A DNA stretch of 64,000 nt. It comes from Ectopseudomonas guguanensis. Lineage in GTDB: Bacteria > Pseudomonadota > Gammaproteobacteria > Pseudomonadales > Pseudomonadaceae. Below, piece by piece: positions 2,027 to 51,406 of the stretch. The DNA lies in NCBI RefSeq assembly GCF_900104265.1, contig NZ_FNJJ01000001.1, positions 136,557 to 200,556 of the forward strand, written 5' to 3'. The notes under the pieces were generated by a model, which saw only the letters and a list, made by a program, of their open reading frames with translations, did not search any database and was not told the origin of the DNA. The translations under genes were made by a program, and so were the position numbers. Every line of letters starts with the position of its first letter. Position 1 is the stretch's first letter.

Positions 2027-4651
<2,625 letters not shown>

Positions 4652-43139: not shown

Positions 43140-43352
43140 TCATCGGCCCCAAACTGGACGATCATGTTTGCGAAGATGCTTATGACTGACCACTACTTTA
43201 CGGCGAGCACTGACCGATTAACTCAGCCGCGTAGTGCTCGATGCTCCAACTTTTGAGCACCACTATTTTGGAGTCTTTGACTGACTACCTTTAGCCGATA
43301 GCTGCCGATCCAAACCTTGCCCTGCTCCCTCCCCCACGCTACAGTCCGCTCT

Positions 43353-43440
43353 GTCACGGTCAATCCCGTGACCGGGTGTGGTAGCCCGATTCACACGAAG
43401 GCGCGGTAGCGCCATAGTCGAGAGCAGGCGCTTTTTTTGT
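43353..43440 (+). promoter_or_regulatory. Immunity-type leader: upstream target site (seqA-like) and hairpins
   Basis: The leader has hairpins GTCACGG/CCGTGAC (43353-43371) and GGCGC-GGTA-GCGCC (43400-43413), then GGCGC-T7-GTGCC at its end. Between the first two lie GTGGTAG (43378-43384) and CACGAAGG (43394-43401), perfectly complementary to two segments of the downstream 76-nt RNA. This copies the seqA / CI-RNA / seqC layout of phage P4. The rest of 43140-43352 shows nothing recognisable. Confidence 0.6.
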
Positions 43441-43465
43441 GCCCGCTGTTTTCTCGCGCATTTAT

Positions 43466-43541
43466 GGCGGGCCGTGTGAGGCAGGCTTCGGCCTGGCCGG
43501 CGTCCTTCGTGGGTCGGTCTACCACCCTTGCACGGTCCGCC
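43466..43541 (+). ncRNA. C4/CI-type antisense immunity RNA
   Basis: A 76-nt segment closed by a 12-bp stem (43466-43477 with 43530-43541, two G-U pairs). Inside are a CAGGC-UUCG-GCCUG hairpin (43482-43495) and a second arm. Segments 43503-43512 and 43519-43525 are perfectly complementary to downstream sites 43583-43592 and 43552-43558, and nearly as well to upstream 43394-43401 and 43378-43384. The length matches the about 77-nt C4 RNA of phages P1/P7. Function is inferred from architecture. Confidence 0.65.
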
Positions 43542-43549
43542 TCCATATC

Positions 43550-43593
43550 GTGTGGTAGCGAATGGAAAGCGGCTCCTTAAATCCACGAAGGAG
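43550..43593 (+). promoter_or_regulatory. Antisense target covering a ribosome binding site (a'/b' or seqC-like)
   Basis: GTGGTAG (43552-43558) and CCACGAAGGA (43583-43592) are perfect complements of the antisense RNA. The second includes most of the AAGGAG site (43588-43593) for the 30-codon ORF at 43604. Pairing would therefore hide the ribosome binding site, as C4 does for the orf ahead of icd and ant. Confidence 0.6.
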
Positions 43594-43603
43594 CATAAGG
43601 AAA

Positions 43604-43696
43604 ATGCGCTATCCCCCTTTTACCCAAGGGCTCCGCCCTGGGCTGTTGGCTGTCATGTCCACTTCCGTTCTGGAGGTGCTGCATGACCAGGTCTGA
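43604..43696 (+). CDS. 30-codon leader ORF
   Basis: A 30-residue ORF beginning MRYPPFTQGLRPGLL and ending at TGA (43694-43696). It has AAGGAG 10 bp upstream and overlaps the next ORF's ATG (43683) in another frame, suggesting translational coupling. It occupies the place of the small leader ORF in C4-regulated phage loci. The peptide itself may have no function beyond control. Confidence 0.55.
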   Translation: MRYPPFTQGLRPGLLAVMSTSVLEVLHDQV

Positions 43697-43925
43697 ATCC
43701 GTCGTTATCCCCTTCCCCACGCCTCGCAATCCCTTGCATAGCCATATCGCGGACGAGTGCCCGCCCCAGGCGGCGGCCGAATATCGGGCGGCGCTGCTGG
43801 CCAAGTTGCTAAGGCGCTTGCCGGAGGCAGAGCTGTCGAATACCGGCAGCGCGCTGTTGAGCGAGTTGATCGTGCTCTATCGCCAGGCCATCGCGCTGGC
43901 CAGCGGGAGGGTCGAGCATGATTGA
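43683..43925 (+). CDS. Orphan hypothetical protein downstream of immunity leader
   Basis: An 80-residue protein starting MTRSESVVIPFPTPRNPLH, with two helical segments (about 28-46 and 55-78). GGAGGTGCTGC precedes the ATG, which lies inside the end of the 30-codon ORF. It overlaps the following gene by 8 bases. Not recognised; by position it would be the product released when antisense control is lifted. Confidence 0.6.
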   Translation: MTRSESVVIPFPTPRNPLHSHIADECPPQAAAEYRAALLAKLLRRLPEAELSNTGSALLSELIVLYRQAIALASGRVEHD

Positions 43926-44220
43926 GCCGCAACGTTACCTCACCCGTCTGCCCGCCCATGACGGTCACCCAGGCGCGGAGTTCGGCTGGAACGAGCAGAA
44001 CCAGGAGAGCTTCTTACACGGCGTGCAGCAGGCGCAGGCCTGGCTGGATGACGCCAACAGTGGCTGGCTTTGGGCCAACCTGCTGCTGGAGCGGCAGCTG
44101 TTCCCGCCGGGCGCACAGCGCCATGCCTTCGAGTTGGGCTTTCTCAGCCGCATCCACCAACGCCTGTGTTCGCCGCTCGGTGGCGGGCATCTGGCCAGGC
44201 GCACGGAGCTGCAGTTGTAA
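43918..44220 (+). CDS. Orphan hypothetical protein, second gene of the cassette
   Basis: A 100-residue soluble protein starting MIEPQRYLTRLPAHDGHPGAE, rich in Trp, Leu and Gln, and overlapping the previous ORF by 8 bases. No family recognised. Its coupling to the previous ORF suggests a two-gene unit under the antisense leader. The following 167 bp (44221-44387) show no gene. Confidence 0.6.
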   Translation: MIEPQRYLTRLPAHDGHPGAEFGWNEQNQESFLHGVQQAQAWLDDANSGWLWANLLLERQLFPPGAQRHAFELGFLSRIHQRLCSPLGGGHLARRTELQL

Positions 44221-44387
44221 CTGGGCCTGGAAGCCGGGTGGGCAAGGTTGCTTGCCCATCCGGCTTGCACCTGCACCCGTTCGCCGGAGAAAAACACTGA
44301 ATACCTGGCACGCCCGCAGTCTAAAGCCTCACTCCCCTGGCAGCCGTTGGGCCGGGTAGCGAAGCCCCCGACAGTCGAGCAAAGGCG

Positions 44388-44933
44388 ATGAAAACCTCGC
44401 GAATCATTACTTCCGAAACCCATGGTGCGCAGCGTGAGCAGCAGGCGGAGCTGATGATCTTCGGTACGCCGAAGGAGCGGCTCGATTTCTACCGGCGGGA
44501 AATTCAGTACGAGACCAGCCTGCTGGCCGGACGCACCAATGCCTATCTGACGGCGCAGTCGTTTCTGGTGATCGCCTATGCGTCGTCCATGGCCAACTCG
44601 AACGAAGACTGGGGAGCGGTGTTCACCCTGGTGGTGCCGGCGCTGTTCACGCTGCTGGGCATCATCAGTTCGCTGCACGCCTGGCCGGGCATCAGGGCCT
44701 CCGCGACGATCATCGAGCACTGGCACTACAAGCAGGAACAGTTGCTGCGCAGCGATCCCGAGTTCGGCCATGCCTATGACGACTCGCCGCTGTTCAGCGA
44801 GCAGGAGGCCAGCCGGGAGAGCACCTACAAGTCGCTGCTGTTCTTCCTGCGCTCGCCCTGGCTGTTCATCGTGTTCTGGAGCGCGCTGGGCGTGTTCTCC
44901 ATCTGGTTGCAGCTGCCCTCGGCGAATCTGTGA
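44388..44933 (+). CDS. Conserved-type membrane protein of unknown function
   Basis: A 181-residue protein with a cytoplasmic N-terminal helix (about 15-50), two close TM segments (about 55-72 and 80-102), a soluble loop, and a third TM near the C-terminus (about 155-175). The layout resembles small RipA- or SLATT-like membrane proteins, but no signature is clear enough to name a family. It lies downstream of the orphan cassette; a functional link is unproven. Confidence 0.65.
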   Translation: MKTSRIITSETHGAQREQQAELMIFGTPKERLDFYRREIQYETSLLAGRTNAYLTAQSFLVIAYASSMANSNEDWGAVFTLVVPALFTLLGIISSLHAWPGIRASATIIEHWHYKQEQLLRSDPEFGHAYDDSPLFSEQEASRESTYKSLLFFLRSPWLFIVFWSALGVFSIWLQLPSANL

Positions 44934-47660: not shown

Positions 47661-49709
47661 ATGAAAGCCACCTCGGCCTCCCTCGCCGTCATGACCGCGC
47701 TGGTCACCCCGCCGATTCACGCAGCCTCGTCCAACTCCACCGTCTCGCTCGGCTCGGTCTACGTCACCCCCGAGGCCAAAGGCGCGCTGCGCACCGACAG
47801 CATCCTGACCTCGGTGGACATCATGGGCAGTGACAGAATCGAGGACAAAACCGTGATGAACAGCTGGGAGCTTGTAGGCCAGATGCCCGGCATCCAGCTG
47901 ACCGAGACGCGCATGGGCGCCGAATCGGGCAAGGTGACCTTCCGCGCCTTCAACGGCGAGGGTTATATCAACGGCATCAAGACCCTGATCGACGGTGTGC
48001 CGAGCAACGTCAACAGCGGCAACCAGCGTTTCATCGACATGATCTTCCCGCTGGAGCTGGACTACATCGAGGTGGTGCGCGGCACCAACGACCCGCGCTA
48101 CGGCCTGCACAACATTGGCGGCAACATCAACTTCGTCACCCGTCAGGGCGGCAACTACACCGATGGCCGCCTGACCTATGGCAGCTTCAACACCCGCGAA
48201 TTCCAGCTGGCGGTCGGCCACGAGGAAGGCAATTTCGCGCAGAACTATTTCCTGGCCAAGCAGGACTCCGACGGCTTCCGCGACCACAGCGACTCCAACA
48301 AATACTCACTGGGCGGCAAGTGGTTCGTCACCGATGACGAGCAGACCATGAAGCTCGGTGTGGTCGCCCGCCTCTATCATCATGAGGCCGAGGAGCCGGG
48401 CTTTCTCACCGCCCGGCAACTGGCCGCCAGCCGCACGCAGTCGCCAGCGAAGAACGCCAACGACGGCGACGACCGCGACATGAAGCACCTCAGCGGGCAT
48501 GCCGACTTTCAGCCCAGCGACGGCCTGAGCCTGAGCAACAAGCTGTACTACAACAGCTACGACGATGACCGCACCGTGACCTTCACCGACTACCCGGTCG
48601 GCAACGCCCCACGCCAGCGCCGCCAGTGGCAGGAACGGCAGACCGGTATGCTGAGCAACCTGACCTGGCGCGCCCACGAGATGCTCACACTCGATGGTGG
48701 CGTCAACTACGAGCAGCAGAACAACGAGTACCGCCGCTATCGCTACAACTTCGGCATCCCCACCGACTTCGACGCGCCGCCGGCGCGCACGCAGAACGAT
48801 GACAGCTACACGCTGTACAACACGGGTGCCTACGCTCAGGCGATCATCCAGCCCATCGAAAAACTGAAGATCATCCCGGCCTACCGGGTGGACAAGTTTT
48901 CCGGCAACACCGAGTTGCTGAGCGGTGAGAAGGCCAAGCTGCAGGACTACGGCTGGATCGAGCAACCCAAACTCAGCGTGGTGTACAGCGTCACGCCGGA
49001 CGTCAACGTCTATGCCAACTGGGGCCGTACCTTCCAGATTCTCACGGGGTCGGAGGGGCCGGCGTACCTGACCGCCGGCCAGACTGCGTACAAGCCCTCG
49101 ATCAACACCGGCAAGGAAGTGGGGGTGAAGTTCAAGCCCTTCGCCGGCTCCGAGGCGCGCATCGCCGTGTGGCAGCAGGATGCTACCGACGAGGTTTCCA
49201 ACATGCCTGCCACCGGTACCACCGTCGGCCTTGGCGAAACCCGGCGGCGCGGCATCGACATGCAGCTCAGCGCGCAACTGAACCAGCAATGGACGGTATG
49301 GGGCTCGCACGCCATCCAGCAGGCCAAGGTGCGCAGTGCCTTCACTGACGGCGGTCGCTCCCTGGCGGGCAACGAGGTGATCTCCACCCCGCGCTACATC
49401 AGCAATGCCGGCGTCGACTATCAGTTCAACGACGCCTGGCGCTTCGGCCTGCAGGCGCGCGCCCAGGGCGATTACTACATTGATACGCTCAACGAACAGG
49501 GCAAGTACGGCGGCTTCGCCGTGCTGGACGCCAACGTGCGCTATCAGGTGTCGGCGACCACCAGCCTCGACCTGCAGCTGAAGAACCTGACCGACCGCGA
49601 GTACGAGTACGTGTGGTTCGACAACTTCTTCTGGGGCGGTGACGACCAGCCGATGTTCTCCCCGGCGCCGGGCCGCTCGGCCTATGTGTCGGTGAACATG
49701 AAGTTGTAA
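47661..49709 (+). CDS. TonB-dependent outer-membrane receptor
   Basis: A 682-residue receptor. A signal peptide ends near HAA (about residue 22). A TonB-box-like TVSLGSVYVTPE comes next, followed by the plug domain (about 45-160; MPGIQLTETRMGAESGKVTFRAF, VVRGTNDPRYGLHNIGGNINFVTRQ) and a 22-strand-type barrel ending YVSVNMKL. The ligand is unknown, but the Zur-like operator suggests a zinc or zincophore role, as for several P. aeruginosa receptors. A C-terminal Phe is absent; the final residue is Leu. Confidence 0.92.
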   Translation: MKATSASLAVMTALVTPPIHAASSNSTVSLGSVYVTPEAKGALRTDSILTSVDIMGSDRIEDKTVMNSWELVGQMPGIQLTETRMGAESGKVTFRAFNGEGYINGIKTLIDGVPSNVNSGNQRFIDMIFPLELDYIEVVRGTNDPRYGLHNIGGNINFVTRQGGNYTDGRLTYGSFNTREFQLAVGHEEGNFAQNYFLAKQDSDGFRDHSDSNKYSLGGKWFVTDDEQTMKLGVVARLYHHEAEEPGFLTARQLAASRTQSPAKNANDGDDRDMKHLSGHADFQPSDGLSLSNKLYYNSYDDDRTVTFTDYPVGNAPRQRRQWQERQTGMLSNLTWRAHEMLTLDGGVNYEQQNNEYRRYRYNFGIPTDFDAPPARTQNDDSYTLYNTGAYAQAIIQPIEKLKIIPAYRVDKFSGNTELLSGEKAKLQDYGWIEQPKLSVVYSVTPDVNVYANWGRTFQILTGSEGPAYLTAGQTAYKPSINTGKEVGVKFKPFAGSEARIAVWQQDATDEVSNMPATGTTVGLGETRRRGIDMQLSAQLNQQWTVWGSHAIQQAKVRSAFTDGGRSLAGNEVISTPRYISNAGVDYQFNDAWRFGLQARAQGDYYIDTLNEQGKYGGFAVLDANVRYQVSATTSLDLQLKNLTDREYEYVWFDNFFWGGDDQPMFSPAPGRSAYVSVNMKL

Positions 49710-49790
49710 CGCCGGAGCCGTTCGGAGGAGGCGCCGAAACCCGGCCCGCACAGCAAGACATAGAACGTAGGGTGCGCCGTGCGCACCAGG

Positions 49791-50255
49791 GGGCAAGTCG
49801 CAACCACAACCGGCTCTGCAGTCCCCCCACGAACGCAAAAGGCCAGGGTTCGTCCCTGGCCTTTTCGTAGGGTGCGCCGTGCGCACCAACTGGCACTGCG
49901 AAAAACTCGGTGCGCACGGCGCACCCTACAGCCGCTGAACGTCGCGCCTTGAGGGGCAAGTCGCAACCACAACCGGCTCTGCAGTCCCCCCACAAACGCA
50001 AAAGGCCAGGGTTCGTCCCTGGCCTTTTCGTAGGGTGCGCCGTGCGCACCAAATGACACTGCGAAAAACTCGGTGCGCACGGCGCACCCTACAGCCGCTG
50101 AACGTCGCGCCTTGAGGGGCAAGTCGCAACCACAACCGGCTCTGCAGTCCCCCCACAAACGCAAAAGGCCAGGGTTCATCCCTGGCCTTTTCGTAGGGTG
50201 CGCCGTGCGCACCAACTGGCACTGCGAAAAACTCGGTGCGCACGGCGCACCCTAC
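49791..50255. repeat. Three 163-bp tandem repeats with terminator-like hairpins
   Basis: Units begin GGGCAAGTCGCAACCAC at 49791, 49954 and 50117, exactly 163 bp apart and nearly identical. Each carries an AAAAGGCCAGGG-TTCG-CCCTGGCCTTTT hairpin (first at 49837-49864) and a TAGGGTGCGCCGTGCGCACC palindrome. It lies between the convergent receptor and DUF1624 genes and may act as a repeated bidirectional terminator. The third hairpin has A in the loop. Confidence 0.88.
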
Positions 50256-50266
50256 GACAGAGGCTC

Positions 50267-51406
50267 TTAGAGGTACTTCAACCAGCGAATGTCGCGCCGC
50301 CTCGCCTTGAGCCGGGCGAACCATTGCGTGGGCGTAAACAGCAGCACCGCCAGCACCAGCGTCGCGGTCCAGATCCAGGCCATCGAGTCGAAGCCGAAGT
50401 AGTGCCCCTGGTTCGCGCCCCAGATGGCAAAGGCGGCGATATACAGCAGCTTCAGCACATACAGGTGCAGCAGGTAGAAGAACATCGGCGCGCTGCCGAA
50501 CACGGCCAGGGTACGCACCATGCGCCCATCGTTGCGCCGCTCGAAGTACGCCAGCAATAACAGACCGACGCCCAGCGTCAGCGCCAGGAACAGCAGCGAC
50601 GGCGGATACTTGGTGATGTTGAGCAGGGCCATCAGCGTCTGCACCCAGGTTTCCCCGACCGCCCAGGGCTTCTCGCCATAGCCGTTGACCAGGCGCAGCA
50701 GCACGAACAGCGCCAGCGCGCCGAAGCCCGTCCTGCGCAATGCCTGCAGACGCTGCTCCGGCGCGCTCGACCAGCGAAACCACGGGCCGATCACATAGCC
50801 CAGGGCGATCACCCCGATCCACGGCAGCACCGGATAGGACGTGCGCAGGCGCAGGGTTTCGGAGAATTCGATCCAGCCACGATCATGCAGCACCGCCCAG
50901 GGGATGTGCATGACCGACTCCGGGCCGAAGTGCAGGCCATCGAGCAGGTTGTGCCCGGCCACCAGCACCAGCCCCAGCACGGCCAGCAGCGTGCGCGGCA
51001 GCCACAGCAGCAGGGATAGCGCCAGCATGCTCAGGCCGATGGCCCAGATCACCTGCAGGTAGATCACCGTAGGCGGGAACTGGAAGGTCCAGGCGAAGTT
51101 GACCAGGGTGAACTCCAGCACCACCAGAAACACCCCGCGCTTGAACAGAAAGGCGCTGGTCGCCGCCCGGCTCATCTGCTTCTCGCCATAGAGAAACGCC
51201 GAAAGCCCGGTGAGCAGGATGAACACCGGCGCGCACAGATGAGCCAGGGTACGGCTGAAGAACAACGCAGGATCGGTAGCGGTCACGTCCATCGGATCAC
51301 CGACCTGCTGGTGCAGGTAGAAGGTTTCGCGAACGTGATCGAGCAGCATGAAGAGGATGACCAAGCCGCGCAGGGCGTCGATCGAAAGGAGACGATTGGA
51401 GGGCAT
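50267..51406 (-). CDS. DUF1624 / HGSNAT-like membrane protein
   Basis: A 379-residue membrane protein with about ten TM segments. The N-terminal RLLSIDALRGLVILFMLLDHVRE matches the DUF1624 (heparan-alpha-glucosaminide N-acetyltransferase-like) family, where the His is a candidate acyl acceptor. The substrate is unknown. The start at MPSNRLLSIDAL is preferred; seven upstream codons (MCHSKSS) are also open. It is convergent with the TonB receptor across the repeat array. Confidence 0.85.
   Translation of the reverse strand: MPSNRLLSIDALRGLVILFMLLDHVRETFYLHQQVGDPMDVTATDPALFFSRTLAHLCAPVFILLTGLSAFLYGEKQMSRAATSAFLFKRGVFLVVLEFTLVNFAWTFQFPPTVIYLQVIWAIGLSMLALSLLLWLPRTLLAVLGLVLVAGHNLLDGLHFGPESVMHIPWAVLHDRGWIEFSETLRLRTSYPVLPWIGVIALGYVIGPWFRWSSAPEQRLQALRRTGFGALALFVLLRLVNGYGEKPWAVGETWVQTLMALLNITKYPPSLLFLALTLGVGLLLLAYFERRNDGRMVRTLAVFGSAPMFFYLLHLYVLKLLYIAAFAIWGANQGHYFGFDSMAWIWTATLVLAVLLFTPTQWFARLKARRRDIRWLKYL

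Follow-up and report, generated by a model that had tools for sequence, protein, structure and literature searches.

A C4-type antisense RNA stands directly in front of a qslA operon in the chromosome of Ectopseudomonas guguanensis. It is very probable that this RNA acts as a chromosomal switch controlling the operon, and that it belongs to a domesticated, largely insulated family of C4 switches. The window, that is the whole stretch of DNA analysed, is 64,000 nucleotides long, and the unit within it consists of the following features.

43317-43345, forward strand: promoter-like sequence TTGCCC-17 nt-TACAGT, from which a transcript would start at ~43352 (sequence inspection)
43353-43392, forward strand: leader hairpins 1 and 2, the second of which presents the a1 copy GTGGTAG (43378-43384) in its loop (RNA fold)
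43394-43401, forward strand: b1 copy CACGAAGG, complement of the C4 loop (sequence reading, run comparison)
43400-43438, forward strand: attenuator-like leader end with a GGCGC/GCGCC hairpin, another weak stem and a run of seven T (RNA fold)
43460-43547, forward strand: C4 antisense RNA, with target-binding loop 43503-43512 and joint 43519-43525 (Rfam RF01695, compensatory changes)
43552-43558, forward strand: a2 target GTGGTAG, exact complement of the C4 joint
43583-43592, forward strand: b2 target CCACGAAGGA, exact complement of the C4 loop, overlapping the Shine-Dalgarno sequence AAGGAG (43588-43593)
43604-43696, forward strand: 30-codon leader ORF with a 14-nt overlap onto the next start (all 33 of 33 loci compared have an ORF of 28-30 codons in this position)
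43683-43925, forward strand: 80-aa protein without family, neighbour of QslA (homologues at the same place in relatives)
43918-44220, forward strand: QslA-family protein of 100 aa, whose start overlaps the stop of the 80-aa gene (PF18226)

A covariance search of the whole window scores the C4 element at 72.4 bits against a gathering threshold of 45 (E 3.5e-12), which bears out the C4-type switch proposed in the sequence-only reading. The 12-bp closing stem described there is present, with 43466-43477 (GGCGGGCCGTGT) opposite 43530-43541 (GCACGGTCCGCC) and two G-T among the 12 pairs; the Rfam model extends it to 17 pairs. The loop TCCTTCGTGG and the joint CTACCAC are exact complements of the b2 and a2 sites, and copies of the target cores recur upstream as an 8-nt run in b1 and a 7-nt run in a1, so that all four complementary segments reported earlier are confirmed by direct reading. 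The downstream site had also been said to cover the ribosome binding site of the 30-codon ORF; AAGGAG is mostly covered by the loop target, its end lies 10 nt before the ATG, and the ORF does overlap the next ATG (43683). When the 90 nt downstream are shuffled base by base 20,000 times, a loop run of 10 and a joint run of 7 never occur together, and singly the runs are reached at frequencies of 0.0004 and 0.0097. Chance complementarity as a source of the matches between C4 and its targets is ruled out by these shuffles and by the permutations described below.

The C4 stretch folds better than its own shuffles (z -5.3), with a minimum-energy fold, computed for the window's C4 alone, that is a long rod and not the three-stem C4 fold. 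Comparison of 34 sequences reveals compensatory changes on both sides in 18 of the 26 consensus pairs and no broken pair, and the ATGG at the expected 5' end of C4 is invariant in all 34. The assignment to C4 (RF01695) follows from a score above gathering, a conserved paired structure, a downstream site covering the ribosome binding site, and a second site upstream.

Upstream of C4, a loose promoter pattern (TTGnnn-16/18-yAnnnT, 85-150 nt before C4) has matches in 31 of 34 leaders; this count includes L142 at a wrong site, where TTGCCG-17-TAAAGT is present by eye. A stricter consensus promoter scan of the window lacks 43317-43345 and lists another site, 43390-43418. In narrow searches the window's leader remains under gathering with both related models, at 41.8 bits against 46.7 for c4-a1b1 (RF03163) and, for 43353-43438, at 44.1 bits against 50 for isrK (RF01394; E 2.5e-8). 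The c4-a1b1 model exceeds gathering in 14 of the 30 QslA loci from named records. A run of at least six T upstream of C4 is not universal, being present in 16 of 27 QslA loci and 30 of 100 C4 copies; P. aeruginosa is among the 11 QslA loci that lack it.

In relatives the leader ORF begins 53-57 nt after C4, and for 31 of 33 loci its overlap with the following gene measures 8-14 nt. For the remaining two (L116 and L045) the script took another start, and viewed separately the L116 locus has an overlap of 8 nt. Among 18 and 13 distinct sequences, changes are not in excess at third positions, and therefore the ORF looks like a coupling device rather than a conserved peptide; the idea of a functional leader peptide is rejected for want of codon-position bias, and the conservation looks like a constraint at the nucleotide level.

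The two genes that follow had been described as orphans. This does not hold for the 100-residue protein, which belongs to the QslA family (PF18226, 93.6 bits against a cut-off of 25) and matches the solved P. aeruginosa QslA structure (PDB 4ng2, E 4.1e-11). P. aeruginosa QslA is an antiactivator of LasR, which it binds and whose dimerisation it blocks. The 80-residue protein does remain without family: nothing above the Pfam cut-off, no PHROG and no NCBIfam match was found, and the predicted structure is helical and weak (mean pLDDT 73.1, pTM 0.35). A relation to DUF6124 or DUF3077 was also considered for it, and profile comparison shows nothing. It is nonetheless the usual neighbour of QslA, as a protein of 80 or 89 aa of this type usually precedes QslA in relatives. 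At five loci (L050, L051, L053, L054 and L055, from G004, G044 twice, G010 and G006) a single ORF of 161-179 aa carries QslA at its end, and in the three of the five that were compared by alignment, only 17-25% of its front part is identical to the 80-aa protein of the window. These ORFs may be fusions, and the 80-aa protein and QslA might act jointly. We also note a radC RNA motif (RF01754) at two of the loci, in L050 at 2933-3077 (85.8 bits) and in L053 at 4174-4318 (96.2 bits), each ~1 kb downstream of C4 and past the QslA-bearing ORF.

The AHL receptor domain PF03472 is absent from the window's genome (G000) in a six-frame search, is likewise absent from G001 and G221, and is found in G216. 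Since it has no match in G000, a LasR-type receptor is probably not the target of QslA there. The available text of PMC6068238 reports that QslA also acts on MvfR, so that a QslA family without an AHL receptor is still not functionless.

We propose that one transcript would run from ~43352 through the leader, C4, the leader ORF, the 80-aa gene and qslA, and that C4 would be cut out of it, as by RNase P in P1. The loop and joint would then pair with b2 and a2 and hide the Shine-Dalgarno sequence of the leader ORF; such antisense cover of the start site is proposed because of the pairing and its co-variation. Because the leader ORF, the 80-aa gene and qslA each overlap the next, a block at the first start would silence the whole operon through loss of coupling, perhaps with the Rho polarity that is at work in P1 c4-icd-ant. 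The upstream a1/b1 copies may compete for C4, and leader RNA ended at the attenuator would then relieve repression in a manner comparable with IsrK. This decoy step, conceived from the a1/b1 copies and the analogy to IsrK, cannot be general because the T run is absent in 11 of 27 QslA loci. Weighing against the switch reading are the rod-like fold of the isolated C4, the short loop runs of the genome's second C4 unit and of four QslA loci, the C4 copies with no QslA match nearby, the lack of codon-position bias in the leader ORF and the generally constitutive qslA expression described in PMC5767178.

The association of C4 with QslA recurs across genomes. QslA was found in nine of 95 relatives, with 13 matches, and besides the window's own locus C4 lies upstream at eight of 12 (L046, L048, L049 and L052 lack it). 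A wider sample of 398 genomes of the genus has QslA in 89, and the count of C4 was made in the 32 genomes with a best QslA match of ≤1.5e-15, the 57 with weaker matches being left out. Here, 58 of 67 QslA matches have a C4 upstream on the same strand, 57 of them at a distance of 402-442 nt and one at 1674 nt. Among the nine matches without C4, three are no more than 465 nt from a contig start, two contain a stop and one is a fragment below the cut-off, which leaves G324:C20, G008 and G391:C9. Conversely, 25 of the 83 C4 copies in these 32 genomes have no QslA match within 2 kb. At QslA loci from named records, C4 exceeds gathering in 26 of 30; L126 and L141 begin inside C4 at the contig end, and L130 (the same locus as L046) and L131 have no C4 beside the matched copy. 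L124 (contig JAHHHI010000064.1 of a Kaiparowitsia implicata MAG) holds a QslA unit whose protein is 81% identical to a Pseudomonas one, and our guess is that it is most likely a mis-binned Pseudomonas contig in a cyanobacterial bin. L048 and L049 (G016 and G010) represent a class of ~92-aa QslA without C4, in which the opposite strand before QslA reads, by eye, like a small XRE-type regulator, possibly an alternative control of the same family.

In 16 of 34 QslA loci a single alignment with the window extends from 43270-43331 to 44208-44243, spanning the promoter to just past the qslA stop and ending there. In this comparison L138 is cut by a contig start, L047 and L143 are one place, and L137 and L140 continue rightward as the same locus; more distant loci align over the RNA part or the genes only. 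Sorting 28 units by their left flanks, which L138 lacks, gives no more than 23 groups, and sorting them by right flanks at most 15; the unit therefore occurs in many places. The repeat GGCCGATAGCNGCC at its left end, considered as an insertion target, is found 16 times in the window with ≤2 mismatches against 4.8 expected, and a 22-base version with ≤3 mismatches is not found there. The gene on the right flank is present in 27 of 57 relatives. The sequence-only reading had proposed looking in other pseudomonads for the same leader and ORFs, and the promoter-like sequence, leader, C4, target and operon do recur together there. For this reason, of its description of the element as co-opted or stripped-down, "co-opted" stands and "stripped-down" fits less well.

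The neighbours of the unit that were scanned, which are part of the window's ORFs, encode an FMN oxidoreductase, DUF6640-like and 8xMP-like proteins (both below cut-off) and a DJ-1/PfpI protein; three neighbours match PHROG families without known function. None of these neighbours was recognised as a phage gene for an integrase, replication or structure, in agreement with the earlier remark that no integrase or structural gene is nearby, and as far as scanned they do not show the setting of a P4-type element or prophage. We also note that the 8xMP-like protein (PF24838, 25.2 bits under a cut-off of 30), at 44388-44933, adjoins the unit on the right.

Comparison of C4 copies suggests that loop and joint may serve as a two-part address. 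The 103 C4 copies compared, of which 100 are distinct, come from 32 genomes. They were drawn from the 30 best-scoring loci, which is a biased choice, from G010 (34 of its 36 copies) and G005 (33 of its 42), from five additional QslA loci and from the window, and these sources partly overlap; loop and joint were taken by a fixed-offset parser. Own loop and joint runs are on average longer than those of mismatched pairings, both upstream and downstream, in G010, in G005 and in all 100, and in each of 12 tests none of 2000 permutations reaches the mean of the own pairing. Joint runs of at least 7 nt occur in 95 of 100 copies on each side of C4, and loop runs of at least 6 nt in 84 downstream and 74 upstream. 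In the 84 copies with such a downstream loop run, the joint target always lies 5' of the loop target, and in 75 of them a start codon follows 3-21 nt past the loop target (median 9). When loop and joint runs are added up, a copy's own downstream target ranks first alone in G010 for 23 of 34 copies, in G005 for 26 of 33 and overall for 59 of 100; with ties among the cis targets tested included, the numbers are 30, 30 and 81, respectively. The insulation of the copies is thus strong, not perfect. In the window's genome, the loop runs of the second C4 unit reach only 5 nt. A duplex energy test on whole segments separated the copies less well (own downstream target best in 13 of 34, 8 of 33 and 19 of 100), with the observed mean still reached by none of 2000 permutations.

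The complementary segments had been expected to be conserved among homologous loci, and they are both kept and co-varying. The 27 QslA loci carry 14 different loop/joint codes, and downstream of C4 all 27 have a joint complement of at least 7 nt, together with a loop complement of at least 8 nt in 23 and of 5-6 nt in four. None of 2000 permutations reaches the observed pairing mean in this set.

C4 is found in 59 of 95 relatives; of the 59 relatives that belong to the genus, 54 have it, as do 367 of 398 genomes in the wider sample, in which at most 10 candidates were scored per genome; the same search finds none in 14 well-known control genomes. The element of the window is thus a member of a widespread chromosomal family in Pseudomonas and not a one-off, which corrects the sequence-only reading. 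A fuller scan counts two copies each in G000 and G001, 42 in G005, 36 in G010, 30 in G046 and 55 in G049. Most copies in G010 and G005 precede DUF6124 or DUF3077 genes. Within 800 nt upstream, C4 is present at 52 of 59 above-cut-off DUF6124 matches (27 of 29 in G010 and 25 of 30 in G005; two sub-cut-off matches were dropped) and before seven of eight above-cut-off DUF3077 matches in the two genomes, the eighth (G005 6904983) being the same ORF as a DUF6124 match without C4. These counts are lower bounds because the comparison drew on 34 of 36 known C4 copies in G010 and on 36 of 42 in G005; the chance expectation is ~0.2% per gene. The DUF6124 and DUF3077 profiles match each other with a probability of 94.7 (E 6.4e-8), and the two may provisionally be regarded as one superfamily; the link is provisional because, out of seven proteins that make up the DUF3077 alignment, two were scanned, and one of these matches Pfam while the other does not. 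Tandem neighbouring C4-DUF6124 units, one with a shortened DUF6124 frame, are observed at G005:C1 3628832-3630617 and G010:C1 741014-741820 and are signs of recent duplication.

Other C4 units encode Bro-N proteins that match phage antirepressor Ant families, or short "ALNPS" proteins. The record of P. aeruginosa phage vB_Pae_U10, which has an integrase and primases, carries a C4 of this kind, and the reading frame after it begins, by eye, like the chromosomal "ALNPS" proteins. The Bro-N/Ant proteins in some units and this "ALNPS" start together point to a phage origin of the C4 unit.

The qslA gene of P. aeruginosa itself also follows a C4 RNA. P. aeruginosa was not met among the 398 sampled genomes, in which the best QslA identity is only 47%. 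An 847-kb P. aeruginosa plasmid record (locus L184) matches the 78-residue QslA fragment of 4ng2 with 100% identity, and its qslA is flanked by aprD, aprX and a gene for a PAS-domain protein. The plasmid is inferred to carry the chromosomal qslA region because in PAO1, according to the available text of PMC6068238, the gene immediately following qslA (PA1244) is PA1243, which encodes a sensor/response-regulator hybrid; the GC content of qslA is given there as 6 points under that of its neighbours. Upstream of this qslA, c4-a1b1 (66 bits) and C4 (64.8 bits) both exceed gathering. The C4 loop pairs with GAAACGGA at 2921-2928, an 8-nt b2 run that ends nine nt before the qslA start codon (2938), and the joint pairs with TTGACAG at 2887-2893; both runs are reached in a fraction of 0.0006 of 5000 shuffles. 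On the upstream side the joint match is 7 nt and the loop match only 4 nt. The locus has no leader ORF (by eye), no 80-aa gene and no T run, and C4 faces the start of qslA itself. Expression of qslA was generally constitutive in the conditions covered in the accessible part of PMC5767178, where its control under varying conditions is called not clear, and QslA protein is high in PAO1 and little in PA14 according to a portion of the review PMC9607943. A C4 RNA facing the qslA start site offers a direct, testable candidate answer to the question of how qslA is controlled.

Some of these observations could also be explained by decay, in which C4 and its leader would be the immunity remnant of a prophage or P4-like satellite and would no longer regulate the genes downstream. 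The C4 of vB_Pae_U10 with its "ALNPS"-like continuation, seen by eye, and the units encoding Bro-N or antirepressor Ant proteins are in line with this, and G008, with qslA but without C4, shows that real decay does occur. However, the pairing has been kept while loop, joint and targets changed, C4 stands regularly with the same gene families at a fixed distance, and the scanned neighbours hold no recognised integrase or structural gene. A mere remnant is thus highly improbable.

Two further readings are compatible with antisense control of the qslA operon and differ in where the main effect is placed. C4 could pair chiefly with a1/b1 and act mainly on termination of leader transcription, in the manner of P4 CI or IsrK. 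Joint matches of at least 7 nt are equally frequent upstream and downstream, the window's leader scores 44.1 bits under isrK and has a T run at its end, and the available text of PMC4825925 names P4 seqA a structural homologue of IsrK; against this, the T run is confined to 16 of 27 QslA loci and 30 of 100 copies, the isrK and c4-a1b1 scores of the window are under gathering, and loop matches of at least 6 nt are weaker upstream (74 versus 84 of 100). The position of b2 on the Shine-Dalgarno sequence points to translation, and a main effect on termination appears unlikely, if not negligibly so. Less likely still is the view that the copies mainly regulate unlinked genes in trans and that the cis site provides a feedback loop. 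Short pairing regions could reach other targets, and bacterial genes or incoming phages are proposed as targets of the C4-like sRNAs of Acinetobacter baumannii in the portion of PMC5320573 available, but within the cis targets tested no other outranks a copy's own in 30 of 34 cases for G010 and in 30 of 33 for G005.

The preferred reading, a C4 switch on the translation of the operon, is best compared with C4 (RF01695) of phages P1 and P7. The window's unit shares with it the RNA family, two pairing segments, a second target copy upstream, and a target on the start site of a short ORF that overlaps the next gene (the P1 layout being described in part in the accessible text of PMC5320573). In contrast to P1/P7, it is chromosomal, has no phage genes among the neighbours scanned, precedes a QslA operon instead of an antirepressor, and has many counterparts in some Pseudomonas genomes. 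The "Group 1" sRNAs of A. baumannii (PMC5320573, in the part available) are similarly many chromosomal C4-like RNAs with a variable target-binding loop, for which RNA-seq revealed processing at GGW. Many C4-like copies per genome are thus already in print, and Weinberg 2010 (PMC2864571) is cited there for predicted C4 in Pseudomonadales among others. That text, as far as it is accessible, names no cis operon families, whereas the Pseudomonas copies keep a matched cis target before defined families.

IsrK-orf45-anrP of Salmonella Gifsy-1, as described in the available text of PMC4825925, resembles the unit in having a leader with a terminator, a short ORF coupled to the antirepressor gene, and a stable RNA processed from a read-through transcript. 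IsrK pairs with orf45, and C4 is not named in that portion of the source. The differences are the isrK score of the window, which is under gathering, the product QslA, and a T run that is not found in all loci. The CI RNA of satellite phage P4, with seqA and seqC, is likewise a processed antisense RNA with complementary sites upstream and downstream (same text); it acts on transcription termination, whereas the site in the window covers the ribosome binding site. P. aeruginosa QslA (PA1244, PDB 4NG2) has in common with the window the protein family and the position of its gene after a C4 RNA; the C4 there faces the qslA start without a leader ORF or 80-aa gene, and the window's genome has no PF03472 match.

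C4 is a known RNA family, and what appears new is its proposed role at QslA and the expanded, largely self-addressed set; no tie of C4 to qslA, DUF6124 or DUF3077 was found in the literature searched, of which subscription papers are not part and some sources are accessible in part. A broader proposal, about as likely as not, is that Pseudomonas genomes hold up to dozens of mutually insulated C4 switches taken from phage antirepressor control, each for its own small regulator-type protein (DUF6124, DUF3077, Bro-N or QslA). In P. aeruginosa one of them would fix the QslA level and with it the quorum-sensing threshold, and loop and joint would form a two-part address that changes with its target each time a unit is copied. 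If true, what was a phage immunity RNA has become a gene switch that cellular chromosomes carry repeatedly, each copy with its own address, DUF6124 and DUF3077 gain a common regulator, and the copies constitute a natural set of orthogonal antisense pairs.

Elsewhere in the window, the reverse strand at 48306-50822 has overlapping long ORFs with common "MVRTAHPTKRPG" segments; judged by eye, it is probably an intergenic repeat array rather than coding sequence.
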